A stretch of 64,000 nucleotides of DNA from Candidatus Zixiibacteriota bacterium (GTDB lineage Bacteria > Zixibacteria > MSB-5A5 > GN15 > JACZUZ01). The notes below the pieces were generated by a model, which searched no databases, had not been told where the DNA came from, and saw only the letters and a list, made by a program, of their open reading frames with translations. The stretch lies in contig JAJRPJ010000003.1 in assembly GCA_024280835.1 (NCBI GenBank), positions 1-64,000 of the forward strand, read 5' to 3'. Below, one piece after another: positions 1,060 through 17,016 of this stretch (positions are counted from its first letter, which is position 1; every line of letters begins with the position of its first letter). Both the position numbers and the translations under genes were made by a program.

Positions 1060-1518
1060 GTGAACACACTTAAACTAACAGCCCCGTCCTTACCGCGGCC
1101 GTTAAGAAAACTAACGCTTTGGACAACGGCATTAATTTTGTCGCTGGCTCTAGCGCTAAGTCCTCCCCAAACATCCTTTGCCAAAAATACACCAGTTCAG
1201 TCTCCTGCCGAGATAGGAATTTCCAACAATGGCGGTGGAAACGGTACAGCAACAGGTGTTATAGACGGTGGCCCTGGGGCTGGTGATGTCGAAAGAATCA
1301 CTGCAGTAATTGGCAAGGGCAAGAGTAAGAGTAAAAACCCAATCGCATCTGTCTACAATGGAGGCGAGTCAGATGATGGTGGTGGAGCGACTGGTGTAAC
1401 TTTCTTTGAATGGACCTCCTTTGGCTACTACCACACAATTTTTGAGCAATTGAAAACCTATTTGTTTCTCGACTGGAACCTAACCTCAACCCCAACTCCC
1501 TCAGACTATGAAAACTAA
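1060..1518 (+). CDS. small exported glycine-rich protein
   Basis: I do not recognise this 152-residue protein. Residues 1-41 look like a signal peptide: basic n-region, hydrophobic core around LILSLALAL, cleavage near SFA. The mature part is rich in Gly, Ser and Asp (two GGG-type patches) with a short basic KGKSKSK stretch and an aromatic C-terminal third. The start is GTG at 1060, preceded by AGAGGTG. Its last 11 bases overlap the start of the TPR gene, so translation of the two is probably coupled. The overlap with a cytoplasmic TPR protein recalls secreted-peptide/receptor pairs such as Phr/Rap, but no sequence similarity is evident and the gene order is reversed. Confidence 0.65.
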   Translation: MNTLKLTAPSLPRPLRKLTLWTTALILSLALALSPPQTSFAKNTPVQSPAEIGISNNGGGNGTATGVIDGGPGAGDVERITAVIGKGKSKSKNPIASVYNGGESDDGGGATGVTFFEWTSFGYYHTIFEQLKTYLFLDWNLTSTPTPSDYEN

Positions 1519-2755
1519 TAGACAAGAATTTGAGCTAGAGATATTCTCGGACGTTCAAAAGTTTGTTCGTTCGGGAGATTTGAAAAGCGCTTTGCGCGAG
1601 TTGAGAACAATACAAGGGGAACTGGATTCTGTGAACGACTCGTTCGAGTTGGCGCACCTCTTTAGATGGTTCTCCATCATAAACTATTACATGGGAGATT
1701 ACACAACTTCATTGTCGTATTCCGAAAAATCCATTCAGGCCAATCAAGGACATAGAGGAGATGTAGGACTATTCAGCAAAGTGCGGCAGGTTCAGGCCTT
1801 GACTTTGCATCGTCTTGGTCGTTGTGACGAGGCTCTGGACTTTATCAACGAAGCCATTGTTGCATTTAAGATATCTGGTGATGCAAGAGGCCAGATTATG
1901 GCTGTCAACGGACAAGCTTTGATTCTCTTAGATACAGGGAAGATTCTTGAAGCTGACAGGATGTTTCGTGATGCTTGCAAGAATCTATCTCCAAAGGAGT
2001 TCCCAGATTTACACCAAAGTAATACGCAGAATCGTGCGTATACCAAGAACTGTTTGGGGCGCTTCAAGGCAGCTTTAGAAATTCTGTCAGATGGTGTCGT
2101 CGAGAATACGAAGAATTCTAGCCGTCAATCATGGATGCACGCTGCACGTGCTTTTGCGCTCATGCACCTTGGGCGTTTCGAGGAAGCTGGCGCTGACTTG
2201 AGTCGTTTGTATTCACTGGCCACACTCAATGGACTCAAGCGCGAAACTATTCTTTATCATGAATACTTCGGCTTGCTAAAACTGATTGTTGGTGACTATA
2301 CCGCCGCCGAAGAATCATTCGAGCGCGCCCTAGCGGCTGTGCCGGAGATTTCCTCACGCAGTGACATGGTCTCCCAAGTCAATCGTCTCTTGGCTGAATT
2401 ACACTTGGCCAAAGGACAATGGCAGAAAGCGCATGAATGTGGTCTCGCGGGGCTGGACGTGGCTCGACGGATCCCCGAGCGCATAGAAATCGGCGCCTGT
2501 CAACGTGTTCTTGCGCAAGCCGAAGTTGAACTTGGCAAACCAGACAGCGCTCGCGAGCGCTACCAGGAAGCGCTAGAACTCTACACCGAATTCCCACACG
2601 GTTATGAGGTGGCCAAAACCCGTCTCTGCGCCGCCGAATCCGGCCTATTCAACCAAAAAGAGTCCGCCGAAATGCTGGCCTTAGCCAACAATTACTTCAC
2701 AACCGAAGGCCTAACCCAAACCAGCTACCAATTGGCTCCCTCATTACAGAGCTAG
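1508..2755 (+). CDS. tetratricopeptide-repeat protein
   Basis: A 415-residue soluble protein without signal peptide or membrane segment. Almost its whole length is TPR-like helical pairs; examples are the LHRLGRCDEALDFINEAI and GDYTAAEESFERALAAVP units. TPR arrays bind peptides or partner proteins. No HTH, kinase or ATPase domain is visible. It resembles the sensory half of larger FCB-group regulators that join TPRs to a sigma54-activating ATPase, here without the ATPase; that comparison is inference. The ATG at 1508 lies inside the end of the upstream exported-protein gene, and no independent ribosome site is seen. A terminator follows at 2795. Confidence 0.85.
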   Translation: MKTNRQEFELEIFSDVQKFVRSGDLKSALRELRTIQGELDSVNDSFELAHLFRWFSIINYYMGDYTTSLSYSEKSIQANQGHRGDVGLFSKVRQVQALTLHRLGRCDEALDFINEAIVAFKISGDARGQIMAVNGQALILLDTGKILEADRMFRDACKNLSPKEFPDLHQSNTQNRAYTKNCLGRFKAALEILSDGVVENTKNSSRQSWMHAARAFALMHLGRFEEAGADLSRLYSLATLNGLKRETILYHEYFGLLKLIVGDYTAAEESFERALAAVPEISSRSDMVSQVNRLLAELHLAKGQWQKAHECGLAGLDVARRIPERIEIGACQRVLAQAEVELGKPDSARERYQEALELYTEFPHGYEVAKTRLCAAESGLFNQKESAEMLALANNYFTTEGLTQTSYQLAPSLQS

Positions 2756-2794
2756 TATCCCACAACACCAAGTTCATAGAACTAACTACAAGTG

Positions 2795-2834
2795 AGGCGG
2801 AGCCAAGTTCAGACCGGCGCCGCCTTTCTTGTTT
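2795..2834 (+). terminator. probable terminator after the TPR gene
   Basis: Stem AGGCGGAGCC (2795-2804) pairs with GGCGCCGCCT (2816-2825) with one mismatch. The loop is 11 bases and a T-rich TTCTTGTTT run follows. It lies 40 bases after the TPR stop codon. Confidence 0.6.
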
Positions 2835-3017
2835 GTGTGGATGTGTATATCCCTCGCTGTACGCTCCTCGGTCAAGCGCTCCAGGAGTGCTCGGATGCTT
2901 CTTGCGCCAGAGCCTAAGACGTAGCGAGTCCAAAACCAATTGGGGGCTCGCTTTTGGTATGTCATAGTTTCAGAGGGCAGCTATAACTGCGTCAAGATTC
3001 CTATCGTCTCCGATCAT

Positions 3018-3365
3018 TTATGGCGCCATGAGAACTGTCAGCGCCATGGGTTCTTGTGTGTTGGTGTTGACGCTGACAGTAACTGCTCTGGGCTCATAGC
3101 CAGTCTTGCGGAATATAAGAGTCACTGGAAGGGTGAACGCACTCGGGCCAAAGGCGCCTGAGCTGTCTGTAATTGCAATTGACGGGAGCGTCAGCGTGTC
3201 TCTGAAGTTGACGACAACACTATCCAATGGGGTCCCCGAAGCGCTGTCCAGAACCACAGCTGAGACTGAGACGAGTTGTTTTCCAGGCCCCGACATTGAC
3301 CTGGAACAATTGACCAATCCTCCGCTAATTGCCAGTGCGGTTATCAAGAAAAATACCTGTTTCAT
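3018..3365 (-). CDS. small lipoprotein with a carboxypeptidase-regulatory-like fold
   Basis: 115 residues from the ATG at 3365, chosen because GGGAG lies 8 bases upstream; the frame is open further but without a ribosome site. Residues 1-20 form a signal sequence ending LVNC, a lipobox-like site with an unusual Asn before the Cys. The rest reads as one beta-sandwich of the CarboxypepD_reg-like type (V-L-D-S-x-S-G-T-P-L-D-S start, then I-T-D-S-S-G-A-F). Such domains are common on FCB outer-membrane and secreted proteins and have no catalytic role. The gene stands alone and is divergent from the XRE regulator. Role unknown. Confidence 0.7.
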   Translation of the reverse strand: MKQVFFLITALAISGGLVNCSRSMSGPGKQLVSVSAVVLDSASGTPLDSVVVNFRDTLTLPSIAITDSSGAFGPSAFTLPVTLIFRKTGYEPRAVTVSVNTNTQEPMALTVLMAP

Positions 3366-3669
3366 TGTGATTCTCCCTTTAATGCTAATATGTTTCGTAT
3401 GGTTATTGTGTTCCCGAACAGACATGTGCATTGCCGCCCACTCTATTCCTGTTCCATAAATCTTAGTCCAGTGTTATTCTTCTTGTTATTAGTTCATCTC
3501 CGTACCGTTATCTCCATTACTGTTTCTCGCGAAGACATATTGTGTAAATATACTAACACAACGAAACTTCCATGTCAACGTCAACGGTGGCAATAATGCT
3601 CGATGGCGGAAGTATTAGCCAAGTTTACTAACATTTTAAGAGATATTTGCAAATAAGTAGCGGAAATGC

Positions 3670-3702
3670 TTGAACTTTTGGGTCGTTTAGTAGTATACTA
3701 AA
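3670..3702 (+). promoter_or_regulatory. promoter with overlapping palindromic operator
   Basis: TTGAAC (3670-3675) and TATACT (3694-3699) are separated by 18 bases. The perfect inverted repeat TTTAGTA-GTA-TACTAAA (3686-3702) covers the -10. Transcription would begin near 3706, two bases before the ATG at 3708, and no Shine-Dalgarno site is present, so the message is probably leaderless. TACTAACA half-sites recur at 3551-3558 and 3626-3633. The layout suits self-repression by the XRE protein. Confidence 0.55.
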
Positions 3703-3707
3703 GCAGT

Positions 3708-4337
3708 ATGGCAGTCAAGAACCTCAAAGCAATCCGTCTGGCCAAAGGGCTAACCCAAAAAGAGCTCGCGTTCCGCTCAGGAGTCAATCGCGGAACTATC
3801 GCCTATTACGAGACTGTCGAGACTATCAACCCGACCCATGTCCAGCTTCGCAAAATCTCCGATGTCCTTGGAGTCAGCCCCGATGACTTGGTTGCCGAGG
3901 AAGGCCAAGAGAAGAAGCACTTCATTTTCGACTGGCGTGATCGTCATCCGAAATACGCGCATATCGACATGTTCCAAAACGTCCCCAGCTACATAATGGA
4001 GCGCGCGGACATCCAGAGAATCATCAAAGCCAACTCCAATGACAATCGCTTAGAGCTAATCAAGCTCTGGGAATACTTACCCGCCGAACAATATCGCGTA
4101 ACTCTGCTATCATTGTTCTATGGCGACGAAGACATCTCAAAAGAGTTCAGCGCTTGGGAATCACTCTTCCCAGCCCAGATAAAGTGGGAAATACGTTTCT
4201 GCGACGTCAAACCCCTAATGGACGAGACTGGCAAGAAGATCCAACCTGAAGGAACTCCAAAACGTCCACCACGCCGAAGAACCGCCAAGAAGCGAGCGAC
4301 ATCTCCAAAAAAGAGAAGTGTTGCAAAGCGCAAATAG
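3708..4337 (+). CDS. XRE-family HTH transcriptional regulator with basic tail
   Basis: 209 residues. Residues 5-62 are a Cro/CI-type helix-turn-helix (IRLAKGLTQKELAFRSGVNR, then a TIAYYE recognition turn). The central part (about 70-180) is not recognised. The last 24 residues are very basic (RPPRRRTAKKRATSPKKRS and onward), an additional non-specific DNA-binding tail like those on other proteins in this window. It sits 179 bases upstream of the twelve-gene membrane operon and may regulate it, but only adjacency supports that. The operator-like palindrome over its own -10 suggests autoregulation. Confidence 0.85.
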   Translation: MAVKNLKAIRLAKGLTQKELAFRSGVNRGTIAYYETVETINPTHVQLRKISDVLGVSPDDLVAEEGQEKKHFIFDWRDRHPKYAHIDMFQNVPSYIMERADIQRIIKANSNDNRLELIKLWEYLPAEQYRVTLLSLFYGDEDISKEFSAWESLFPAQIKWEIRFCDVKPLMDETGKKIQPEGTPKRPPRRRTAKKRATSPKKRSVAKRK

Positions 4338-4516: not shown

Positions 4517-5977
4517 ATGAAATCTATCGTAATCGCGAAATCCAACAGCCGTGCGAAATGGCGCTCATATAGTAGTCTGGCTACTATAACGTCTTTGTCG
4601 TTGGCGTTGGGTATTGCTGGAATTGTTCTGTGCACGGGATTGTTGTTATCGACAAGCGCCTTGGCTCAAGACACCGAATCGGTTGATTCAACCGCGATTG
4701 ATTCAAATGGTAGTGTACTTGAGGAAGTCCCATCGCCAGCTTCGAATGTTTTTGCCGAAGACACGCCGAATGACAAGGGCAAGTCGGCGACTGTCACTTG
4801 GGACTTGTCTCCGGAGGACACTATCGGTGGAATTGTTGATGGCTATCTAATTTTGCGTTCAGAGTCTCCGTCGGGACCGTTTGTCGATACAGTTGGCAAT
4901 GTCACAATTGGCAAGACTGAGGCATTGGATAATAACGCAACCGACGGTGTAGAATATTTCTATCGCGTTGATATGTATCGCTCCGAAGTCGCAGTTGACG
5001 GGAGTAAGTTGTTGGTCGGTTCTCCGTCAACAGTATGGGGGCCGATAACTACTAGCCCGCAGTGGTTTCATGGTAAGCGTGGCATCATGCTCTTTATCTT
5101 CCTGATTGTCGCTTTCTCGATTTTACAATTCATCAGCCAAGCTCAGAGTGGAAAAAGTAAGATTTGGATGGTGAACATCCTCTTTATAATTCTTCTCGGA
5201 TATCTATATTCATGGGTCATTGCAGTGATTGTAGCTATCACACTGGCGCTGTTTATCAAAGATTTCTTCTCCACTGAGGAAATCTTTCTCCGTAAGATCG
5301 GTGGAATCGAAGCAGTTGAAGAGGCCATAGGGCGCGCCACCGAGATGGGTAAGAAGATATTTTTCATTCCTGGTATTCAGGATATGAATGACGTGCAGAC
5401 TATCGCTGGAATGGCGATTCTTGGCCGTATTGCAGCAGTGGCCGCAGAATATGAGACATGGCTGGAAGTTCCGGTTAGTAAGTCGATGGTGATGGTGACA
5501 GCGCGAGAGACAATGAAAGAGGCCTACTCACGAGTCGGTCGTCCTGAGATGTATCAGGAGGCACAGGTTCATTTTGTCACAGAAGATCAGTTTGGTTATG
5601 CGGCGGCTTTGGACGGAATGTTTGTTCGTGAAAAGCCTGCCACTATTTTCTTTATGGGCGCGTTTTTCGCCGAGTCGTTGATTTTGGCTGAAACAGGTAA
5701 TGAAGTTGGAGCGATACAAATCGCTGGAACCGCTATGCCGTCGCAACTGCCATTCTTTGTGGCAGCTTGTGATTACACACTCCTTGGCGAAGAGCTATTT
5801 GCCGCCTCGGCGTATTTGTCGCGTGAACCGCGTCAACTTGGCTCGCTAAAAGGCCAGGATGTTGGTAAGGCGCTTTTCTTGGTCGCGATGATGATTGGGC
5901 TGGTTATTGTACTGGCTGGTGAAGTTGTCAAAGTGCCTGATTGGTTGTACTTGGCTCAATACTTCAGTATTGACTGA
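4517..5977 (+). CDS. module 1 subunit A: FN3 plus DUF6754-like membrane protein
   Basis: 486 residues. An N-terminal hydrophobic signal/anchor (about 20-50, ending ALAQ) is followed by an extracytoplasmic FN3-like domain (about 70-175; VTWDLSPEDT, VDGYLILRSES), two or three hydrophobic segments (about 188-250), then the conserved domain from residue 257: FLRKIGGIEAVEEAIGRATE, IPGIQDMNDVQTIAGM, and PFFVAACDYTLLGEELFAAS near 412. One C-terminal TM follows. From memory this domain is the uncharacterised DUF6754. No catalytic motif is recognised. Paralogues lie at 8310 and 12169, each heading the same four-gene order. This copy has one or two more central membrane segments than the others. Confidence 0.85.
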   Translation: MKSIVIAKSNSRAKWRSYSSLATITSLSLALGIAGIVLCTGLLLSTSALAQDTESVDSTAIDSNGSVLEEVPSPASNVFAEDTPNDKGKSATVTWDLSPEDTIGGIVDGYLILRSESPSGPFVDTVGNVTIGKTEALDNNATDGVEYFYRVDMYRSEVAVDGSKLLVGSPSTVWGPITTSPQWFHGKRGIMLFIFLIVAFSILQFISQAQSGKSKIWMVNILFIILLGYLYSWVIAVIVAITLALFIKDFFSTEEIFLRKIGGIEAVEEAIGRATEMGKKIFFIPGIQDMNDVQTIAGMAILGRIAAVAAEYETWLEVPVSKSMVMVTARETMKEAYSRVGRPEMYQEAQVHFVTEDQFGYAAALDGMFVREKPATIFFMGAFFAESLILAETGNEVGAIQIAGTAMPSQLPFFVAACDYTLLGEELFAASAYLSREPRQLGSLKGQDVGKALFLVAMMIGLVIVLAGEVVKVPDWLYLAQYFSID

Positions 5978-6056
5978 GTTGCATAGGACTCAGGATTTGT
6001 TGTTTAAGAAGATTAGTTGTTAAAGAATAATAGTTAAGAAAAGTAGTTAAGAGAAT

Positions 6057-6734
6057 ATGAAACGCGAAATACCACTGTTAATAACCTCCATCGCTGGAAT
6101 CGTCTTTGCGGTTAGTTTCTTCATTCCGCATTGGCCGTTTGGCGACGCTGAAAACATATTCGGCGATTGGATGAGTGTTGTTTCGGCTTTTGCGATTTGG
6201 CTGGGAATGTTTAACCTCGCTGAAGTTTCTCTTCGTAAAGTCATCCGCAAGTCTGAAGGTTGGAACTATGCCTTGATAGTGATTGGTTCAATGCTATTGA
6301 TGTTGGTCATTGGCTTTAGCTCTGTTTACCACGCCATAAATACTGACACACCACATATGGATCCAGGCACTGGATTAAAGTGGATGTATGACTACGTCTT
6401 CTCTCCTTTGAGCGCGACAATGTTTGCCATGTTAGCGTTCTTTGTGGCCTCGGCTTCGTACCGCGCTTTCCGCGCCAGAAGTCTCGAAGCGACATTGCTG
6501 TTAGTCACGGCATTCTTTGTAATGGTCGGCCGCGTTCCATTGTTAGACCCAATTCTAGTTTGGGCTGGAATCACTGACTTCGCATTTTTCAGCGCAGTGG
6601 CGGATTGGATTATGACCTATCCTAATGCGGCGGGTCAAAGAGCAATCATGATTGGTATTGCACTTGGTATAACCTCGAGCTCACTACGTATTATTCTAGG
6701 TATTGAGCGTTCACATATTGGAGGTGACGCCTAG
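6057..6734 (+). CDS. module 1 subunit B: polytopic membrane protein
   Basis: 225 residues with about five to six hydrophobic helices and no soluble domain. The N-terminus KREIPLLITSIAGI is shared with its paralogues at 9616 and 13512. So are the internal motif LAFFVASASYRAFRARS (near residues 125-142) and the C-terminal AAGQRAIMIGIALGI, followed by LRIILGIERSH. These conserved loops probably contact the other module subunits. The stop codon directly abuts the start of subunit C. The 79 bases before it hold several imperfect copies of AGTTAAGA. Function unknown. Confidence 0.85.
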   Translation: MKREIPLLITSIAGIVFAVSFFIPHWPFGDAENIFGDWMSVVSAFAIWLGMFNLAEVSLRKVIRKSEGWNYALIVIGSMLLMLVIGFSSVYHAINTDTPHMDPGTGLKWMYDYVFSPLSATMFAMLAFFVASASYRAFRARSLEATLLLVTAFFVMVGRVPLLDPILVWAGITDFAFFSAVADWIMTYPNAAGQRAIMIGIALGITSSSLRIILGIERSHIGGDA

Positions 6735-7637
6735 ATGGCTCATAATCTGGCTTTAATAGGGCTTGTACTCACTGGATTGAGTTTGATTTATGTTCTTTAC
6801 AGAACAATCGCAGGTAACCCTGTTGATAGGCGGGTTGTGTTTATCTATGTGGCGCTGGCCGCAGGTCTGCCGTTATTCATGGACTTGTTACCGCCTGTAA
6901 CTGTTACGCCCGACGTGCAAGCTTTGGTTGACGTTCTTGAAGAATTGCCTCCTCATTCAAAAGTCTTGGCGGCTTTTGATTATGATCCGCCTTCGGCTCC
7001 TGAGTTACAGCCAATGGCAGTAGCGTTTTTCAAATTTGCTTTTAAGAAAAAACTGGATGTAATAATTGTGGGCTTATGGCCGCAAGGCCCTCAACAAGCC
7101 AATGATGCGATTGCCACTGCCTTGCTAGATTCGTCCGTGATGGCAGCTGGCCCAATCTATGGTGAGGATTATGTCAACCTTGGATTTCAATCTGGCAATG
7201 AGTTCGTAATTCAACGAATGGGTTCTGGTTTCAAAGCCATGTTTCCGCGTGACGAGCGTCAGACTCCTTATGATTCGATTCCTGTTTTGCAGAACATTGT
7301 AAATTTTAGCAACATCGACTTCGTAATGAATTTCAGTTCTGGCAAGCCAGGCACAATTGAATGGGTACAAATAGCTGTTGACAGGTTTGGCGCTCGTCTT
7401 GGCGCTGGCAATACAGCGGTTCAGGCTCCCCAAGTTTATCCTTACTTGAGGGCAAAACAAATGGTCGGGTTGCTCGGCGGAATGAGCGGGGCTGCAGAAT
7501 TTGAGAAGGCTCTGTCAATGCCAGGCAACGGTTCGATAATGTTGCTCTCGCAAATCTCGACACACGCAATAGTGATTCTGTTTATCATCATTGGTAATAC
7601 TGCGTATTTCCGAACTAGGAAAAGAAAGAACGATTAG
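6735..7637 (+). CDS. module 1 subunit C: two-ended membrane protein with alpha/beta domain
   Basis: 300 residues: two N-terminal TM helices (about 5-55), a soluble alpha/beta-looking domain (about 65-265) and one C-terminal TM followed by RTRKRKND. Motifs shared with the paralogue at 10308 are FDYDPPSAPEL, DYVNLGFQSGNE, GKPGTIEWV, APQVYPY and GLLGGMSGAAEFE. The regular beta-alpha alternation and Gly-rich turns suggest a ligand-binding fold, but I do not recognise the family and see no signature of a known enzyme or binding protein. The ATG immediately follows the subunit B stop, so translation is coupled. Confidence 0.85.
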   Translation: MAHNLALIGLVLTGLSLIYVLYRTIAGNPVDRRVVFIYVALAAGLPLFMDLLPPVTVTPDVQALVDVLEELPPHSKVLAAFDYDPPSAPELQPMAVAFFKFAFKKKLDVIIVGLWPQGPQQANDAIATALLDSSVMAAGPIYGEDYVNLGFQSGNEFVIQRMGSGFKAMFPRDERQTPYDSIPVLQNIVNFSNIDFVMNFSSGKPGTIEWVQIAVDRFGARLGAGNTAVQAPQVYPYLRAKQMVGLLGGMSGAAEFEKALSMPGNGSIMLLSQISTHAIVILFIIIGNTAYFRTRKRKND

Positions 7638-7640
7638 TGT

Positions 7641-8294
7641 ATGCCTGATGCAAGTCCAATAGGAATTTTCATAGCTGGTCTATTGACGCTGGGTATTTTT
7701 TCGTTTCTGTATAAGGACAACCCAGTCTATAAGGTCTGCGAGGCGATCTTTATCGGTGTCTCGGCGGCATACTGGGCTGTCGAATATTTCTATAGCGCAT
7801 TGTATCGTAAGTTTTGGCTTGGTGTTTTTCCTCCAGCGGGAAGTGGAGTTGAAGCAGATTTGCTCCTGTGGGGAGGCGCGATACTTGGAGCATTGATGCT
7901 TTGTCGGATGATCCCCAAGATAAATTGGCTGTCCCGCTGGCCATTGGCTTTCATAGTTGGGGCTACTGCTGGTTTATATATGATGCTGTTCTTTGTGTCG
8001 AACGCGATGAAGCAAATTGAATCTACAATGCAGCCTTTGATTCAGGACTCGTTATTGGAGACATTAGGGTCTTTTACTATCGCCATAGGAACAATCACTG
8101 GTCTGATTTACTTTTTCTTCTCAAAAGAGCATAAAGGCATCTTTGGCGGCGCCGCCAAAGTAGGCATTTGGGTATTGATGGTCACGTTTGGAGCTTCGTT
8201 TGGTTATACAGTTATGAGTCGTATGTCACTATTGATTGGGCGCATGGACTTTTTGTTCAATAGCTGGGCGACAAATTTCGGGCAGATGTTCTAG
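7641..8294 (+). CDS. module 1 subunit D: polytopic membrane protein
   Basis: 217 residues, about six hydrophobic helices. The hallmark FSFLYKDNPVYKVCEAIFIG lies near residues 20-40, and the C-terminal block FFFSKEHKGIFGG, then GIWVLMVTFGASFGYTVM, lies near 153-195. Both blocks recur in the subunits at 11246 and 15043. The SKEHKG loop is the most conserved charged segment and is a good candidate functional site. It starts 3 bases after subunit C and is the shortest of the three paralogues. Function unknown. Confidence 0.85.
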   Translation: MPDASPIGIFIAGLLTLGIFSFLYKDNPVYKVCEAIFIGVSAAYWAVEYFYSALYRKFWLGVFPPAGSGVEADLLLWGGAILGALMLCRMIPKINWLSRWPLAFIVGATAGLYMMLFFVSNAMKQIESTMQPLIQDSLLETLGSFTIAIGTITGLIYFFFSKEHKGIFGGAAKVGIWVLMVTFGASFGYTVMSRMSLLIGRMDFLFNSWATNFGQMF

Positions 8295-8309
8295 GAGTAC
8301 TATCTAAGA

Positions 8310-9611
8310 GTGTTATCTAAGAAATCTATGAGCCAACCGAACCAAAACTCACCATTCTGTAAAATCTTTCCTACACTACTTTCTGCGCTGTTTTTATTTA
8401 CCATACTTGCTAGTTCTCCAAAAACTCTCTTTGCCCAAGACGCAGAGACTTCTGTAATTGATTCTACCTTGGAGAATCTCGTACCCATTCCAGCTCGACC
8501 AGCAAATGTTAAAGCTAAAGATCATGTCTATGATATAGGCGAGAAAGTTGATGTCAGTTGGGAGTTGTCACCTGATGATACTACAGGCTTGCGTAATGTT
8601 GTTGGGTATATCATATCTCGTCGACTTGATACAGCCTCAGATTTTGATTCAGTAGGCGCTGTGTTTTCGCGAATTGCTTCGTTGACCGATATTGGCTTAA
8701 CCAAAGGCGAAAGTTATCAATATGCGGTAACTGCTTACACCTCTGCTGGCGCCGTCTCTGAAACTTCGGTATCGAATTCAGTGACAACAGAACAGGAATG
8801 GTTTGATGGGGACAAGTTTTGGCAGGTCTTGCTACTGGTCATAATTGCTGGCTCGGTTGCCTACTTTATCTATCATGCCAAAAAAGGCAAGCCGATGTTC
8901 CTGCGCAAGATTGCAGGGCTGCAAGCTGTCGAAGAGGCCATTGGGCGCGCCACCGAAATGGGACGGCCAATATTGTTCATCCCTGGTATTCATGATATGG
9001 ATGATGTGCAAACAATCGCGGGTATGACTATACTTGCGAAAGTCGCCAAACAGGTTGCCGAATACGAGTCACGTATTTTTGTTCCGACTCGCGCTTCGCT
9101 AGCGATGACCGCCGCGCGTGAAACAGTCCGCGAAGCCTATATGACTGCGGGTCGTATTGATGCCTATCGCTCGGATGATATTTACTATGTCACTGACGAA
9201 CAATTTGGTTATGTCGCGGCGGTTAATGGAATAATGACCCGTGACAAACCAGCAACCTGTTTCTATCTAGGCGCTTTCTTTGCCGAATCACTAATTCTGG
9301 CTGAAACAGGCAACTCAATCGGCGCTATCCAAATCGCAGGAACCGCAATGCCGGCTCAGTTGCCGTTCTTTGTCGCTGCTTGTGACTATACACTAATTGG
9401 TGAAGAACTATTTGCCGCCTCAGCCTATCTCAGTGAGGATCCCAAACAAATGGGTTCGCTCAAGGGACAGGATGTTGGCAAAGTTGTCGCGATGGCAGCC
9501 ATTCTGATTGGCGCAGTTCTGGCGACTCTTGGCTCCGAAGAAGGTATGAACATCGAGACCTTCAATAGCGCATTTCATGCTTTCTGGGGTGTCTTTGGGG
9601 GCGGGGAATAG
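8310..9611 (+). CDS. module 2 subunit A: FN3 plus DUF6754-like membrane protein
   Basis: 433 residues from GTG at 8310; AGGAG lies 12 bases upstream, and an ATG at 8328 is the alternative. A signal peptide ends near TLFAQ. The FN3-like domain (about 60-165) shows VDVSWELSPDDT and VVGYIISRR, followed by a single TM (about 172-192). The conserved domain begins near 196 (FLRKIAGLQAVEEAIGRATE) with IPGIHDMDDVQTIAGM and PFFVAACDYTLIGEELFAAS near 352. A C-terminal TM follows. It lacks the extra central helices of the first copy. It starts 16 bases after the previous module, so the modules are almost certainly co-transcribed. Confidence 0.85.
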   Translation: MLSKKSMSQPNQNSPFCKIFPTLLSALFLFTILASSPKTLFAQDAETSVIDSTLENLVPIPARPANVKAKDHVYDIGEKVDVSWELSPDDTTGLRNVVGYIISRRLDTASDFDSVGAVFSRIASLTDIGLTKGESYQYAVTAYTSAGAVSETSVSNSVTTEQEWFDGDKFWQVLLLVIIAGSVAYFIYHAKKGKPMFLRKIAGLQAVEEAIGRATEMGRPILFIPGIHDMDDVQTIAGMTILAKVAKQVAEYESRIFVPTRASLAMTAARETVREAYMTAGRIDAYRSDDIYYVTDEQFGYVAAVNGIMTRDKPATCFYLGAFFAESLILAETGNSIGAIQIAGTAMPAQLPFFVAACDYTLIGEELFAASAYLSEDPKQMGSLKGQDVGKVVAMAAILIGAVLATLGSEEGMNIETFNSAFHAFWGVFGGGE

Positions 9612-9615
9612 ATAA

Positions 9616-10305
9616 ATGAAGCGCACTATTCCTATACTGATAACCTTTATTACGGGTGGAATAATTGTTCTGGCGGAGTTTATTCCGCCATGGGCAATTT
9701 TGCGTGAGCATGTTCTCATTTACTTCCAGATTATTGCTGTCTTTGCGTTTTTCCTTGGAGGCGGTTCACTACTAAAAATCAATTGCCAAAAGGTCGTCCG
9801 TAAGCGTGAGGATTGGCAGTTCGCTATTGTGACACTAGTTGGATTCTTCATCATGCTAGCGCTTGGATTATTTAAAATGGGTAATCCTGAAATGGTTGAT
9901 CTGGGCTTCGCTGCAGATTTGAATGCCAGTGGCTCATGGTTCAAGAATGTCTTTGACGCGGTCAAAGCGCCACTCTCAGCTAGTATGTATTCGTTGTTAG
10001 CATTCTTTATCGCTTCGGCTTCATACCGCGCTTTTCGAGCCAAGAACTCTGACGCTACTGTTTTGCTTGTCTCGGCATTTATTATTTTGCTTGGGCAAAC
10101 CTTTGTCGGAGTTGTCTCCACTGGATGGATGCCTGAATGGATGTCGTTCTTCAAAGTTGAAAACCTCTCGCTCTGGTTACTCGCCAAAGCGAATCTCGCT
10201 GGTCAACGTGCGATTTTGATTGGTATCGCTCTTGGCATTATTTCGATGTCACTACGAGTGATCCTTGGAATTGAGCGCACTCATCTCAGCGGGGGAGACG
10301 AATAA
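9616..10305 (+). CDS. module 2 subunit B: polytopic membrane protein
   Basis: 229 residues, paralogue of the proteins at 6057 and 13512. It starts KRTIPILITFITGGI and keeps LAFFIASASYRAFRAKN near residue 130 and the LAGQRAILIGIALGI block, then LRVILGIERTH, at the C-terminus. It has about five to six membrane helices. It starts 4 bases after subunit A, with a GGGGCGGGG run upstream in the end of that gene. Function unknown; presumed integral part of the module complex. Confidence 0.85.
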   Translation: MKRTIPILITFITGGIIVLAEFIPPWAILREHVLIYFQIIAVFAFFLGGGSLLKINCQKVVRKREDWQFAIVTLVGFFIMLALGLFKMGNPEMVDLGFAADLNASGSWFKNVFDAVKAPLSASMYSLLAFFIASASYRAFRAKNSDATVLLVSAFIILLGQTFVGVVSTGWMPEWMSFFKVENLSLWLLAKANLAGQRAILIGIALGIISMSLRVILGIERTHLSGGDE

Positions 10306-10307
10306 GC

Positions 10308-11249
10308 ATGTTACTAGCGGTTACTCAGGGTCTTGGACCTGTATTTAGTTGGTTCTTTTGGATTACTTTCGCGGCAGGTCTCGGATGGCTTCTGTGGATG
10401 TCTATTACTGGACGTGAAGTTGAGCGGCGTATAATATTTCTCTTTATGGGACTGACTGTCTCAGGCGCTGTCTTAGCTGGGATTATTTTACCAGTTCAAG
10501 AGACAACAGTTGTGCGCAATGTTTTTGATACTATTGAGGGTTTAAGTGAAGGTGACAGAGTTCTACTTTCACTTGACTATGATCCGTCGGGAGCCCCAGA
10601 ACTTGAGCCAATGGCCAAAGCTGTTTCCCAGCATTGCTTCGAGAAAAAACTGAAGATTTGCTATATGACACTCTGGGGCACAGGTGGCGCGATGATTACT
10701 GATGTGATTGCGTTGGCAAAAGTGGATTTCCCTGATTTAGTATATGGCGATGATTATTGTAATGTCGGTTATCGCGCTGGTAATGAAGCTGTGCTCCGTG
10801 TGATTGCCTCTGATTTCCGCAAGACTTTCCCCACCGATGTCTCTGGAACCTCGCTCGATAGTTTGTCAGTGATGAATGGTATTCTTAACTGCGCGGATTT
10901 CAAATATATCGTTGCGATTGGTAGTGGTCGGCCTGGAATCAAAGAGTGGGTCGAGTACGTTGTCGAGCCATCGGGGGCCTTGATGGGCAGTGGCGCCGCG
11001 GCGGTTTCGGCTCCGCAACTTTATCCATATTATCCTCAGCAAATGAACGGTATGATGGGTGGTTCAAAAGGTGCCTCTGAGTATGAAAAAATGTTACGCC
11101 GAGTCTATCCGAAATTCAAAAGCTCCAGAGCGCAGGCTACTGAAATCATGGGGCCGCAAACTGTCGCCCATGTCTTCCTGATGTTGCTTATCGTCTTTGC
11201 CAACATCTCTTACTTCCTTGCCAAAAAGAGGAAAGGGGCTAGCGCATGA
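10308..11249 (+). CDS. module 2 subunit C: two-ended membrane protein with alpha/beta domain
   Basis: 313 residues: two N-terminal TM helices, a soluble domain (about 75-275) and a C-terminal TM before KKRKGASA. It retains the module motifs LDYDPSGAPELEPMA, DYCNVGYRAGNE, GRPGIKEWV, APQLYPY and GMMGGSKGASEYE. GGGGGAG lies about 10 bases upstream of the ATG. Its stop overlaps the subunit D start as ATGA. Function unknown. Confidence 0.85.
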   Translation: MLLAVTQGLGPVFSWFFWITFAAGLGWLLWMSITGREVERRIIFLFMGLTVSGAVLAGIILPVQETTVVRNVFDTIEGLSEGDRVLLSLDYDPSGAPELEPMAKAVSQHCFEKKLKICYMTLWGTGGAMITDVIALAKVDFPDLVYGDDYCNVGYRAGNEAVLRVIASDFRKTFPTDVSGTSLDSLSVMNGILNCADFKYIVAIGSGRPGIKEWVEYVVEPSGALMGSGAAAVSAPQLYPYYPQQMNGMMGGSKGASEYEKMLRRVYPKFKSSRAQATEIMGPQTVAHVFLMLLIVFANISYFLAKKRKGASA

Positions 11250-12061
11250 ACCGCAAAGTATTAATACCAATAGCCTCAATAATTGTTTTCATCGGATTTG
11301 TTCTTTTGAAATTAGACTGGGATGGCGCCGATAGGACACATGAACTTTGGGAAGCGCTAGAAGTCACCGCAGGTGGATTCCTGACTTTGATGATTTTCTC
11401 GTTCCTCTATAAGGACAATGCTTTTTACAAATTCGCTGAGCACCTCTATGTGGGTATCTCAGCGGCCTACTGGATGTGCGTTGGCTTCTGGTCAAACCTC
11501 GCTCAGCAAGCGATTCCTCATCTTTCACAATCACTTAGTGAGGCGCTTGGGCAGCCGTTCTTGGGTTATATTTGGCATTATTGGATACCTGTGGCATTGG
11601 GGCTAATTCTATTGACCCGCTTACTTCCTGAAAGCATGAAAATCGGCTGGATTTCCAAATGGACACTGGCGTTTATTGTCGCCTCCACTGCAGGGTTGTT
11701 TATTACCGCTAACCTACAGGCCAACTTTATCGCGCAAATCGCTAGTACTATGAGTTTGCCGCTCTTGCCTGACTGGACAGGGTTCGGGGATTTCTTGTCG
11801 AACTTTGATTTGAGCTACGAAGGCCAGTTCGTCAAGATGTTTTCCAATTGGGTCATCATTATTGGTGTCATTAGCGGATTAGTCTACTTTTTCTTCTCGA
11901 AAGAGCATACAGGTTGGTTTGGCAGAGTCTCGCGCCTCGGAATCTGGGTGTTGATGGTCACTTTTGGGGCCGCTTTTGGCTATACTGTGATGGGCCGTGT
12001 TTCATTATTAGTAGGTCGATTGACTTTCCTTTTCCGTGATTGGGCGGGAGTAATTGGCTAG
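11246..12061 (+). CDS. module 2 subunit D: polytopic membrane protein
   Basis: 271 residues with about seven hydrophobic helices. Compared with the module 1 copy it carries an extra N-terminal helix (RKVLIPIASIIVFIGFVLL) and a longer loop before the last helices. The hallmark FSFLYKDNAFYKFAEHLYVG and the C-terminal FFFSKEHTGWFGR, then GIWVLMVTFGAAFGYTVM, are present. Its ATG overlaps the subunit C stop by four bases. A gap of 107 bases separates it from module 3. Function unknown. Confidence 0.85.
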   Translation: MNRKVLIPIASIIVFIGFVLLKLDWDGADRTHELWEALEVTAGGFLTLMIFSFLYKDNAFYKFAEHLYVGISAAYWMCVGFWSNLAQQAIPHLSQSLSEALGQPFLGYIWHYWIPVALGLILLTRLLPESMKIGWISKWTLAFIVASTAGLFITANLQANFIAQIASTMSLPLLPDWTGFGDFLSNFDLSYEGQFVKMFSNWVIIIGVISGLVYFFFSKEHTGWFGRVSRLGIWVLMVTFGAAFGYTVMGRVSLLVGRLTFLFRDWAGVIG

Positions 12062-12168
12062 TTTGCAAACTTGGCCGTTTGTGTTTTATCTTGCAATGAT
12101 TCTTGAACACGGTTATTAACAGCGGCGGAACGAGACCGTCATCTGAAAATGGCTTTTCAAAAAATTTC

Positions 12169-13449
12169 ATGAACTACTACACAGAAAAGATAACTAGAGC
12201 ATTATTGCCAGCCAACGCTACGGCCCTATTGGTTGCCTTGTTGTTGGCCTGTGCGACTTTGAATGTTTCTGCTCAGGAATCAGTCGTTGAAGAAGATGCA
12301 GTAGGTTCTGCTCTCGTAGCGCCAGTGGGTGTAAGCTCTGTGACGGCTTCGGACGCTCCGAACGACGCTGGTCGGGCTGTTGTTGTGACTTTTGTTCCTG
12401 CACCCGTGCCACAGAGTGAAGATCAGGCGTTGACACTTAGCTACGAAATCCATCGCGCGCTTTCGCAGGATGGGCCTTGGAAAAAAGTTGGCGCTATGCC
12501 GTCAGATACTACTGCTATTATGACTTTCAAAGACGCAGGTGGTCGTGACACTACCAGCTCTGACTATTTCCCGACAGAGACAGACTTGTATTACCGTGTC
12601 CGTTCGATGACAGTCGACACAGCATTATTCGCTGAATCAGAAATCGCTGGTCCTGTGCAGGGAATCGGGCAGTGGTGGAATAGTGGACGGAGTCCAGTTT
12701 TTTGGTTCGTATTGTTCTTTACTATATTGACGTTGGTATTTCTAAATGTCGCCAGAAAACGCGGTGACTCTCTTTATATTCGCCCACTGGCTGGAATTGA
12801 CGCAGTTGACGAAGCTATCGGCCGCGCCACAGAAATGGGCAAACCGATTCTGTATGTTCTTGGGCTTGGCACGGCGTCTGATATCGCCACCATCGCCTCA
12901 TTCACAATCCTTGGACGAGTTTCACGCAAAGTCGCTGAATATCAAACAGATGTAATTGTTCCTTGTTATGATCCGATTGTCTTTACGATTGCTCAGGAGA
13001 CTGTGCGCTCTGGATATATGGACGCTGGCCGTCCCGATGCTTACCGTGATGAACAAGTTTATTTTGTTACGCAGGCACAGTTCGCCTATGTCGCGGCGGT
13101 CAATGGCACGATTCTACGTGAACGCCCTGCGACAAATATCTATTTGGGTAAGTTTTTCGCCGAGTCACTGATTTTGGCCGAGACTGGGGCTATTGCTGGA
13201 TCAATTCAAATAGCTGGCACTGATGAAATCGCTCAGTTGCCATTCTTTGTTGTGGCTTGTGATTATACATTGATTGGTGAAGAACTCTATGCGGCATCGG
13301 CCTATCTTGGCCGTGAACCGCTCTTACTTGGAGCTCTCAAGGCTCAAGATTATGCCAAAGCGGTGATAGTGGTCTTGGCGATTATTGGTGTGATTATGAC
13401 AAGCATGGGATATGAATGGTTTGCTGAGGCTTTTAAGGTCGTTGGTTGA
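12169..13449 (+). CDS. module 3 subunit A: divergent FN3 plus DUF6754-like protein
   Basis: 426 residues from the ATG at 12169, chosen because the signal peptide (ending NVSAQ) begins there; the frame is open to 12103. The FN3-like domain is about 45-160, one TM about 170-190, and the conserved domain starts near 202 (YIRPLAGIDAVDEAIGRATE) with PFFVVACDYTLIGEELYAAS near 358. It departs from the first two copies at sites they share: IPGI becomes VLGL, GTAMP becomes GTDEI, and LKGQDVGK becomes LKAQDYAK. This suggests a specialised or non-catalytic partner. No ribosome site is obvious. Confidence 0.82.
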   Translation: MNYYTEKITRALLPANATALLVALLLACATLNVSAQESVVEEDAVGSALVAPVGVSSVTASDAPNDAGRAVVVTFVPAPVPQSEDQALTLSYEIHRALSQDGPWKKVGAMPSDTTAIMTFKDAGGRDTTSSDYFPTETDLYYRVRSMTVDTALFAESEIAGPVQGIGQWWNSGRSPVFWFVLFFTILTLVFLNVARKRGDSLYIRPLAGIDAVDEAIGRATEMGKPILYVLGLGTASDIATIASFTILGRVSRKVAEYQTDVIVPCYDPIVFTIAQETVRSGYMDAGRPDAYRDEQVYFVTQAQFAYVAAVNGTILRERPATNIYLGKFFAESLILAETGAIAGSIQIAGTDEIAQLPFFVVACDYTLIGEELYAASAYLGREPLLLGALKAQDYAKAVIVVLAIIGVIMTSMGYEWFAEAFKVVG

Positions 13450-13511
13450 TAGTTGTTAGTTGATGATTGTGGCTTAGGCCGAATAAGTATAGAATTCTTA
13501 TAGAGAAGAAT

Positions 13512-14144
13512 ATGAAACGACAGATACCATTAGCGCTTGTAATACTCTTCGGCTGGTTGATGCTGGCTTTGTATTTTATCCCACTTGAGGGCGCACAGAA
13601 AATCAATGAAAATTTGCTGGATTGGACAGCTATCATTGGTATTTTCGCTTTGGCGCTTGGAATCTGGTCCTTGATATCTGTTAATGTCGACAAGATTCAA
13701 TACAAAAAACGGGATTGGCCCTATAGTATTGTCACGCTCTTTGGTCTGTTTGCGATGATAGTCTTCGGACTGAAATTCGGCGGAGCAGATTCAATGTTTC
13801 AAGGCCAAGAGTCATATATGTTTCGTCACTTCTTTGACGACATTCTGATTCCGATCTTCTCAACAATGTTTTCGCTCTTGGCGTTCTTTATTGCCTCAGC
13901 GGCATATCGCGCTTTTCGCGCTCGCTCAGCCCTAGCCACGATCCTGTTGGTTGGCGCTATTATAGTGATGATTAGATTCTTCCCCTTTATTGCGGAGTAC
14001 ACACGTCCTGTGGCGGATTGGATTATCAATGTTCCTAACTTGGCAGCTAAACGCGCAATTTGGATGGGTGTTGGACTTGGTATTGTCGCCACTGGGTTGA
14101 AGGTAATTCTGGGTATCGAACGTTCTTATCTTGGTAGAGATTAA
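13512..14144 (+). CDS. module 3 subunit B: polytopic membrane protein
   Basis: 210 residues from the ATG at 13512, matching the KRxIP start of its paralogues; the frame is open upstream to 13467 without support. It keeps LAFFIASAAYRAFRARS near residue 120 and a C-terminal LAAKRAIWMGVGLGI, then LKVILGIERSY. Its last base overlaps the subunit C start (TAATG). The leader contains back-to-back TTGATAG/TTGTTAG/TTGATGA copies. Function unknown. Confidence 0.83.
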   Translation: MKRQIPLALVILFGWLMLALYFIPLEGAQKINENLLDWTAIIGIFALALGIWSLISVNVDKIQYKKRDWPYSIVTLFGLFAMIVFGLKFGGADSMFQGQESYMFRHFFDDILIPIFSTMFSLLAFFIASAAYRAFRARSALATILLVGAIIVMIRFFPFIAEYTRPVADWIINVPNLAAKRAIWMGVGLGIVATGLKVILGIERSYLGRD

Positions 14145-15043
14145 TGAGTAACAATCAAACAAATAACAACTCGAATCTAAGCTTCTTAGAACGTCTCATG
14201 CTTCTTGATAGGCGCTGGGTATTCTTGGTTTTGGCCTTAGTGGTGGTCTCTACATATTACATCCCGATGAAAGTTCCAGTGCCAGCTTCGACTGAAGTAC
14301 GATCGATTTATGATGCTGTTGAGGGACTCAAAGAAGGCGACAAGATTCTTCTGGCGATTGACTACGACCCGAATGCTCTCGCTGAATTGCATCCGATGAC
14401 CTACGCGATTCTAGAGCAGTGTTTCCGCAAGAAGGTTGGTGTGATAATCACGTCACTTTCGCAAAATGGCCCTGGTATGGCCGAACAAGCGATCTTAGAT
14501 ATCGTCGATTCGACGGCCTTACCCAGAACGTACAATGGTGTTAGTTACCCAGGCCGAGAGATAATCAATGGGGTTGATTACTGTTTCCTTGGTTACCGAG
14601 CCTATTTTGAGTTGGTCATCACGGGTATGGGCCAAAACTTCCGCACATTTTACTCAAGAGACTACTATGATGTCTTGTTGGATTCTATCCCGATAATGAA
14701 AGACGTGCAGAATTACGATGATATTGAAATGGTGATAGATATTTCTGGGTCGAATGTGGTTGACGCTTGGATTAAGTATGCCGCTGCTCGCTATGACGTG
14801 AAACTGGCTCTGGGCCTCACTGGTGTCATGATGACAGATTACTATCCCTACCTTGGTTCAGGCCGAATTTTCGGCCTGATGGGTGGTTTACTTGGCGCAG
14901 CGGAATATGAGAGCCTAGCTGACAACCCAGGACTGGCGATGGATGGTATGAAAGTGCAAGTTTGGGCTCATATTACAATTATTCTGTTCATCCTGATCGC
15001 CAATATCGGCTATTTTGGAACACGCAAAAAGAGGGGACTCTAA
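14144..15043 (+). CDS. module 3 subunit C: divergent two-ended membrane protein
   Basis: 299 residues with one N-terminal TM rather than two (about 22-42), a soluble domain and a C-terminal TM ending GTRKKRGL. It aligns with its paralogues through IDYDPNALAELHPM, VDYCFLGYRAYFE, YPYLGSGRIFGLMGG and LLGAAEYE. It has lost the GNE triplet after the GY motif, and the GxPGxxEWV motif has become GSNVVDAWI. Loss at these Gly/Glu sites points to a changed or absent ligand function. It overlaps its neighbours by one base on each side. Confidence 0.83.
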   Translation: MSNNQTNNNSNLSFLERLMLLDRRWVFLVLALVVVSTYYIPMKVPVPASTEVRSIYDAVEGLKEGDKILLAIDYDPNALAELHPMTYAILEQCFRKKVGVIITSLSQNGPGMAEQAILDIVDSTALPRTYNGVSYPGREIINGVDYCFLGYRAYFELVITGMGQNFRTFYSRDYYDVLLDSIPIMKDVQNYDDIEMVIDISGSNVVDAWIKYAAARYDVKLALGLTGVMMTDYYPYLGSGRIFGLMGGLLGAAEYESLADNPGLAMDGMKVQVWAHITIILFILIANIGYFGTRKKRGL

Positions 15044-15825
15044 TGAATCCGCTTCTTAGTTTTGGTGACTACCTCTGGATGACTTTTGCCGCGTTTCTGA
15101 CACTGGCGACATTTTCATTCCTCTATAAAGATAATCCGCTTTACAAATTTGCCGAACATCTAGTGGTCGGTGTCTCAGCTGGATATTTTGTAATTATTCT
15201 CTACTACGGCTCACTAAAGACACAACTTGTTGAAAAACTTATCAATCATGAATGGGTCTATCTGATACCGTTGGTGTTGGGTGTTTTGATGTGGACTCGT
15301 TTCAATAAGAAGTTGTCGTGGGTCTCTAGGTACCCTATTGCAATCTATATTGGAATAGCCACTGGGTTGGCAATTCCGCTGGAAATGCAAACAAAAGTCA
15401 CCGAGCAACTGGAAGCAATGATGGTGTATATCCAATGGAACGACTTACTTGCTGGTGGATTTTGGAATTACACGAACTCATTTGCGGCGCTATTGGTGAT
15501 TATTGGCACACTCGCGGCCCTGATTTACTTTTACTTCTCCAAGGAGCATAAGGGTTGGTTTGGTGGAGTCGCCACAGTTGGTATCTGGACGCTGATGCTT
15601 GGTTTCGGAGCGTCATTTGGCGCCACAGTCATGGCTCGTATTTCATTGCTCATTAACCGTGTTCAGTTTCTCGATCAATGGCGTATCAACTCAGTTGGTT
15701 CGGTTCATCAAGAGGGTAGTGGCTCCTATACCGCTATCTATTGGGTCGTGCTACTTGGTATGCTGGGACTCCTCGTGGTTGATTTGATTCGCACCAAAGG
15801 CAAAACAGAAACCGATTTGAACTAA
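15043..15825 (+). CDS. module 3 subunit D: polytopic membrane protein
   Basis: 260 residues from the ATG at 15043 (TAATG overlap with subunit C); the longer frame from 14962 lies inside subunit C. It keeps FSFLYKDNPLYKFAEHLVVG and FYFSKEHKGWFGG, then GIWTLMLGFGASFGATVM. It carries an extra C-terminal helix (AIYWVVLLGMLGLLVVDLI) absent from the other copies. It is the last gene of the operon; no clear terminator follows. Confidence 0.83.
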   Translation: MNPLLSFGDYLWMTFAAFLTLATFSFLYKDNPLYKFAEHLVVGVSAGYFVIILYYGSLKTQLVEKLINHEWVYLIPLVLGVLMWTRFNKKLSWVSRYPIAIYIGIATGLAIPLEMQTKVTEQLEAMMVYIQWNDLLAGGFWNYTNSFAALLVIIGTLAALIYFYFSKEHKGWFGGVATVGIWTLMLGFGASFGATVMARISLLINRVQFLDQWRINSVGSVHQEGSGSYTAIYWVVLLGMLGLLVVDLIRTKGKTETDLN

Positions 15826-16533
15826 ACTTACTCTTTTCGTTAATCAACCTTTTGAAACAGTCCCATCTATTCCACTTCCATATCCACTTGTTCTATGATG
15901 CGCTACCAGTTTAGTTAACTCAAATTGTATCGCCGCATTGAGACGAGATGAAGTTTTCTTGTGGCTTAGCGCCAACTTTTTTGTTTACTCGTTAATTCTC
16001 CCACTAAGCGCGTACAAAAATCACGTCTACAAGAAAAGTTTTTTATTGACATTAGTAGCTATAAAATGGCATATAGTGTGTGGAACCGTGTATCCCCACA
16101 ATATTTTTGCGCCCAGCGGCGAGATTTCGTATCTCTTTGCCGTGCATGGCCTTATCGGAACTACGTCAATTCGCGCATAAGCTCCTGCTTGGCAGTATGT
16201 TACAAAATCTATGTTTCGAGTGTGGTGTAAGTTTGTCTATAGCAGTGATTTATGAGGGAGCGCTTGTAAGAGAATTCTCTGAATCGCTTGACATCGGACA
16301 CTACTCTCGCTAGCATTTGTGTGATTGCAGTTAGGGCTTTGGATCCAAGTATGGGTTTTTTGTCTGTCATAATAGCCAGAAAGAAATTGTTTTCGACTTG
16401 TATGGAACGCAAGGTGAGCGCGATTGAAGCTTCTGGTAGAAATAATTTTCAATTTTCTTGATGTAATGAGTTTTGTGTCAGGACAACACGAATTCGCCTC
16501 ATGCGACTAACAACAACAAGTGAGGTTTTACGG
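15826..16533. other. intergenic stretch after the membrane operon
   Basis: About 700 bases without a supportable gene. Short frames on both strands lack ribosome sites and domain features. A perfect TTGACA lies at 16046-16051 with an AT-rich region after it, but the nearest -10-like hexamers are at poor spacing. GAGG at 16522 belongs to the next gene. Confidence 0.5.
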
Positions 16534-17016
16534 ATGAAAAAGAACGCTATGAAAGAGCTGGACAGGGAAAGCAAACGACAAGATTCGGTTAGCCCCAAGT
16601 CGCGTCTCAATGCTGAAAGCATGTCTCCAGAAACAGTGGCTTCATCTCTGGTTACTGGTAGAAACGTCTTGGCCAAACAGGACGGTAAGAAAGCGGCAGC
16701 GCCAACGACTCTCTCAGAAGTCGATATGACAGGTCTGACCGAGGAAGAGCGCAAGAAAGTCGTAAGTGATATTAGACGCGAGTATCAACGCCAGTACTAT
16801 CAGAAGCACAAAGAAAAAGCCAAAGAATATCAACGACAGTACAATCTGACCCATAAGAAGAAAATTCGCGGTGGACGTGGTAAGGCCAGTTTTGATTGCC
16901 CACGTGAACAAACGAGAATGACCTACAACACCGCTGACTTGATGCATTCACCGCCAGAGAAAGCCATGAAGATTATTCGGGATATTCTCTCGGGCGAAAA
17001 AATGTTCACCATGTAG
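16534..17016 (+). CDS. small basic protein, unknown
   Basis: 160 residues from the ATG at 16534, chosen because GAGG lies 8 bases upstream; an in-frame ATG at 16501 has no such site. The protein is hydrophilic, with an extremely charged central helix holding two copies of EYQRQY (REYQRQYYQKHKEKAK, then EYQRQYNLTHKKK), probably coiled coil or nucleic-acid binding. The C-terminal part (TRMTYNTADLMHSPPEKAMK) looks folded. No family recognised, no signal peptide. It stands alone between long intergenic regions. Confidence 0.6.
   Translation: MKKNAMKELDRESKRQDSVSPKSRLNAESMSPETVASSLVTGRNVLAKQDGKKAAAPTTLSEVDMTGLTEEERKKVVSDIRREYQRQYYQKHKEKAKEYQRQYNLTHKKKIRGGRGKASFDCPREQTRMTYNTADLMHSPPEKAMKIIRDILSGEKMFTM

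Follow-up and report, generated by a model that had tools for sequence, protein, structure and literature searches.

A tandemly repeated four-gene membrane set in Zixibacteria and its conserved partner genes

The A-B-C-D array

The window, a stretch of 64,000 nucleotides, lies on contig C3 of a 3.31-Mb genome of Candidatus Zixiibacteriota bacterium. Between positions 4517 and 15825 of the forward strand it harbors the gene order A-B-C-D three times in succession, (A-B-C-D)x3, with all 12 genes on the same strand. The first-pass annotation, made from the DNA letters, had proposed this threefold order, and every one of the 12 genes was recovered on one strand. The genes of the array and the gene that follows it are:

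A1, 4517..5977, + strand: signal peptide, FN3 region, transmembrane (TM) helices, DUF6754 and a further TM helix; PF20539 at E=1e-111, a DUF6754 match in the genome itself
B1, 6057..6734, + strand: predicted six-TM protein with a conserved cytosolic YRAFRA loop; family profile and topology, no Pfam family at cut-off
C1, 6735..7637, + strand: probable TM-anchored extracytoplasmic Rossmann-like domain; family profile and the model of the paralogue C2
D1, 7641..8294, + strand: polytopic protein with the motifs FSFLYKDN and FSKEHKG; family profile and topology
A2, 8310..9611, + strand: PF20539 at E=6e-123; AlphaFold2 model, pLDDT 84
B2, 9616..10305, + strand: family profile
C2, 10308..11249, + strand: family profile; AlphaFold2 model, pLDDT 94.6, pTM 0.90
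D2, 11246..12061, + strand: family profile; 4-nt overlap with C2
A3, 12169..13449, + strand: PF20539 at E=4e-113
B3, 13512..14144, + strand: family profile; conserved MKRxIP start
C3, 14144..15043, + strand: family profile
D3, 15043..15825, + strand: family profile; refined ATG start
J, 16501..17016, + strand: small basic protein without a Pfam match; many Zixibacteria carry it 3' of their array, and it may be a mere neighbor

Three starts were refined. A3 more likely begins at the ATG at 12169 than at the TTG that opens the reading frame at 12103, B3 more likely at 13512, with its conserved MKRxIP, than at the TTG at 13467, and D3 more likely at the ATG at 15043 than at the TTG at 14962. With D3 starting at 15043, the long overlap of C3 and D3 is a start-codon artefact. 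The genes had been described as touching or overlapping at many junctions, and the intervals are indeed between -4 and +15 nt at 8 of the 11; the wider ones, with refined starts, are A1/B1 (79 nt), D2/A3 (107 nt) and A3/B3 (62 nt).

The paralogues share 33-47% identity overall (A 39-47%, B 36-40%, C 33-36%, D 39-43%). BLASTP between families A, B, C and D gives no match at E<=1e-3, and among the more than 80 loci scanned no reading frame is matched by two of the four family profiles. A relationship of A to C, or of B to D, was considered and rejected, as hhalign finds none in either pair. The motifs listed for the paralogues (PFFVxACDYTLxGEEL in A, ASxYRAFRA in B, GAAE(Y/F)E in C, FSFLYKDN and FSKEHxGxF in D) generally hold; the exception is C2, which reads GASEYE. 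A fourth module, in the order D-C-B-A and with an A protein that has no FN3 domain, is found on contig C7 of the same genome.

A promoter scan returned 24 promoter-like sites against 18.4 expected, and terminator-like sites exceed those of shuffled sequence and mostly fall inside genes. Upstream of A1, positions 1508-4337 encode a TPR protein and an HTH_3 regulator with almost no relatives in the other loci searched, and the next gene after J, at 17592-20573, is of the pyruvate phosphate dikinase type.

Architecture of the four subunits

Subunit A had been read as FN3 plus a DUF6754-like part, and both assignments hold. All three proteins fall within DUF6754 (PF20539), at E<1e-110 and with 372.6, 409.5 and 377.2 bits for A1, A2 and A3 against a gathering threshold of 27. 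The FN3 domain is recognized both by sequence, with the family profile matching a titin FN3 sequence from the PDB at E=1e-32, and by fold, with a TMt of about 0.8; no Pfam fn3 match is listed for A1-A3 at E<=1. Reading the sequence by eye, each of the four A proteins of this genome has a putative N-terminal signal peptide, made of a hydrophobic segment with an A-Q site resembling a cleavage site behind it. Charge bias and hydropathy predict that FN3 lies outside the membrane and DUF6754 in the cytosol. The DUF6754 part is the most conserved region (0.79, against 0.40 for FN3) and contains many invariant polar residues. Foldseek matches of A are dominated by FN3 and do not place the DUF6754 fold, and in sequence searches this part matches no solved protein. 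Targeted full-text literature searches found no paper that names DUF6754 or PF20539, in keeping with the earlier remark that no function is described. Thus A belongs to the Pfam family far above the cut-off, whereas the entry itself omits the B, C and D partners and carries no described function.

Subunits B, C and D give only sub-cut-off matches in Pfam (including member-by-member searches), NCBIfam, PADLOC and PDB sequence profiles, and none matches any solved structure. B is predicted to have six helices with its N-terminus inside, and D six core helices and a variable first one. C had been described as a domain between two TM segments, and the AlphaFold2 model of C2 agrees, placing a Rossmann-like domain between helices with a pLDDT of 94.6. 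In the PDB this model resembles Rossmann folds in general only, and no match reaches E<=1e-3. Charge bias and hydropathy would place the domain outside the membrane, where it and FN3 may be the sensing or binding parts first suggested.

Conservation follows this predicted topology. The cytosolic loop scores 0.78 in B and 0.85 in D, the periplasmic C domain scores 0.55, and most periplasmic loops, together with FN3, are variable at 0.37-0.48. Neither the alignments nor the topology of B and D revealed an invariant charged residue in mid-helix, and an ion-driven pump is therefore not indicated. Some Planctomycetes and Phycisphaerales carry large inserts in B (~300-400 aa; L049, L042, L045) and D (~170 aa; L077, L082, L083), which are predicted to face outside the membrane.

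Gene order, partner genes and duplication history

The neighborhood survey proposed in the first-pass annotation finds the A-B-C-D set to be a conserved unit across phyla. Eighty loci share the order, drawn from Zixibacteria, Planctomycetes, Marinimicrobia, Eisenbacteria, a few Acidobacteria, Calditrichota and a Gemmatimonadota-labelled group. Beyond Zixibacteria-like genomes the set is mostly single-copy; tandem doubling and tripling are typical of Zixibacteria, and multiplication is mainly a feature of that lineage, in which the threefold array is ancient. The exact (ABCD)x3 arrangement occurs in 34 loci, counting the window and a few near-duplicates, or 30 once near-identical loci are removed, which is far above chance. 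DUF6754 itself is present in 133 of 133 genomes of the window's phylum, in about a quarter (50 of 199) of those sampled from the planctomycete phylum, in 3 of 199 from the phylum of an Acidobacteria MAG, and in none of 14 control genomes. Some Planctomycetes have B-C-D unlinked from E-F-A. Of 9 genomes from this group in which A stands without B-C-D nearby, 7 carry D at another place, and in one of those seven (L201) B and C adjoin the unlinked D. In several Planctomycetota and Phycisphaerales loci, plsX-, fabH-, fabD- and fabG-like fatty-acid genes follow 3' of D (L019, L020, L044, L051, L066, L068, L078).

In most single-copy loci and in deep-branching Zixibacteria, two genes, E and F, lie directly 5' of A. 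They are preceded by two small proteins, I and H, giving the operon order I-H-E-F-A-B-C-D in single-copy loci and deep-branching Zixibacteria families. E, a GlmL-family ASKHA protein, and F, of 375 aa, belong to the A-B-C-D system. The earlier reading was in this respect incomplete, since the four genes supply just the membrane half of the whole. F is present in 20 of 20 other ABCD-bearing genomes sampled through their loci, and in 78 of 79 good Zixibacteria genomes. In the latter it is nearly always a single full-length copy, against mostly four to six copies of DUF6754. The cultured planctomycete Thalassoglobus neptunius carries A, D and F. These three genes are also confined to the identical 3 of 199 Acidobacteria genomes; as they are linked there, the pattern may stem from one transfer per genome and not amount to independent tests.

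E belongs to PF13941 (MutL/GlmL), with 445.9 bits in this genome against a cut-off of 27 and 422 bits at L049, and it matches GlmL at E=5e-74. It stays below the cut-offs of the GlmL equivalog NF040745 (249.6 vs 475 bits) and of two further GlmL/Or-4 models (229.2 vs 600 and 184.9 vs 204), the models compared being NF040745, NF040744 and TIGR01319. Both ASKHA phosphate motifs are kept, as DCGSTTTK and DIGGATTD, and E is accordingly predicted to bind ATP. Thus E shares family and motifs with GlmL/Or-4, but it differs in being coupled to membrane genes, with no mutase genes seen among its conserved neighbors. F has only weak barrel-sandwich matches (NQRA_N, RnfC_N, Biotin_lipoyl). In Zixibacteria a further gene, G, stands between E and F (8777-9616 of locus L118); its product, which has no Pfam match, starts with a signal-like stretch and carries a TM segment at its C terminus.

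The proposed comparison of gene trees, which could have exposed unrelated histories, instead finds that all four agree on paralogue class. Modules 1 and 3 each occupy one side of a branch in every family. Module 2 does so for B and C, and requires two changes in A and D, where it is placed near the single-copy orthologues. For nearly all unusual loci the four families are concordant: types 1 and 3 are carried by L144/L145 and L142/L143, a divergent type by L139/L140 and L134. As the trees agree even at these loci, A-B-C-D has been duplicated, moved and lost as a unit.

The three sets had been suggested to form either homologous or mixed complexes. Once the species signal common to all is removed, rate residuals are correlated inside native modules (r 0.31) but not from one module to another (r -0.24), and the native A/B/C/D grouping is the best of 216 regroupings, a result stable to leaving out any locus in a jackknife. 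The homologous alternative, with separate complexes, is thus favored over mixed sets, although the within-module correlation could instead reflect the shared history of each block. The rate of F keeps step with all three modules (r 0.74-0.89, slightly higher with module 2), so no single module is singled out.

Tol-Pal adjacency and the role of the complexes

The Tol-Pal genes encode a trans-envelope system that holds the cell envelope together. In some 26 Zixibacteria genomes, counted by hand over the listed loci and including the one studied here, E-G-F lies directly 5' of tolQ-tolR-tolB-pal. In this genome the locus (L118, 6869-16679, on contig C13 and away from the window) reads E-G-F, tolQ, tolR, a TolA-like gene, tolB, pal and ybgF, and the TolQ/ExbB, TolR/ExbD and OmpA families are confirmed. 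The adjacency is that of Zixibacteria with a divergent arrangement, where E-G-F points away from the (ABCD) array and leads into the tol genes, and ybgF is present wherever the locus extends far enough. At L215 the tol genes are on the opposite strand, and at L204 and L214 no tolQ adjoins F. No such adjacency was seen in the planctomycete and other non-Zixibacteria loci fetched. Being confined to certain Zixibacteria families, it may reflect no more than synteny, and we take it as a lead to function rather than proof. Pfam finds no homologue of TolQ, TolR, TolA, TolB or Pal among A-D, E and F, so that the likeness to Tol-Pal is one of genomic adjacency only.

Gene order, co-inheritance and duplication as a unit are shown, and A-B-C-D with its partners E and F quite probably works as a single functional unit. 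Each set may assemble into one inner-membrane complex, in which A would hold its highly conserved DUF6754 in the cytosol and FN3, when present, in the periplasm, B and D would form the membrane core, and C would present its Rossmann-like domain in the periplasm. The soluble pair, the GlmL-like ASKHA protein E and F, would then engage the conserved cytosolic side of the complex as an ATP-coupled driver or regulator, and in Zixibacteria the membrane part would have been multiplied into parallel complexes that use one common E/F pair. Working alongside Tol-Pal, they may maintain or constrict the diderm envelope. That these are undescribed inner-membrane/periplasmic complexes which share an E/F pair and serve ATP-coupled envelope maintenance with Tol-Pal has a little less than an even chance of being right. 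It is rather doubtful that I-H-E-F-A-B-C-D amounts to an undescribed ASKHA-powered trans-envelope machine, working with Tol-Pal in diderms of Zixibacteria and several other phyla and present in three parallel versions in Zixibacteria. For a DUF that is universal in the sampled Zixibacteria, yet for which no described function was found, the operon and the link to Tol-Pal now supply named partners and a complex that can be tested. Duplication as a unit would also make the array a natural example of paralogous membrane complexes that operate in parallel with one common soluble pair.

Polytopic B and D, soluble domains on both sides of the membrane and ATP-type motifs in E would equally suit a transporter or flippase, in which a substrate is captured by the periplasmic FN3 and C domains and passes along a path formed by B and D, with E/F supplying or gating the energy of ATP. 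We consider this unlikely: no subunit reaches the cut-off of a transporter family, no ABC-type ATPase recurs alongside, and presence in all sampled Zixibacteria fits a housekeeping task better than a single nutrient. The relatives of E raise another alternative. The nearest named ones, GlmL and Or-4, are accessory proteins of B12-dependent mutases and not membrane drivers, which weighs against the envelope reading. DUF6754, with its conservation and invariant polar residues, could instead be the active part of a membrane-anchored cytosolic enzyme or signaling system, with E as a GlmL-like reactivating chaperone and B-D as receptor or anchor. This appears distinctly improbable, as no cofactor-binding or mutase family is found among the conserved neighbors and DUF6754 has no sequence match to solved proteins.

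The weak barrel-sandwich matches of F speak for an Rnf/Nqr-type electron-transfer or ion-pumping complex, with F as its RnfC/NqrA-like subunit. These matches fall short of the RnfC_N and NQRA_N cut-offs (14.6 vs 25.6 and 17.3 vs 25 bits), however, and the loci have no recurring gene of the Rnf, Nqr, flavin or iron-sulphur kind, making this account very improbable indeed. PADLOC gives no anti-phage match to A2-D2, E or F at E<=0.01. As a general idea of how such a system might work, the proposed envelope complex recalls PilM-PilN-PilO-PilP, an assembly platform with a cytosolic ASKHA protein and small membrane partners, but no scanned subunit has a family match to it and B and D are polytopic. 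Finally, E and F are fused in some lineages, and solitary fused E-F paralogues of ~870-980 aa, which have no neighbors in common, are found in Zixibacteria and Eisenbacteria (L189-L195).
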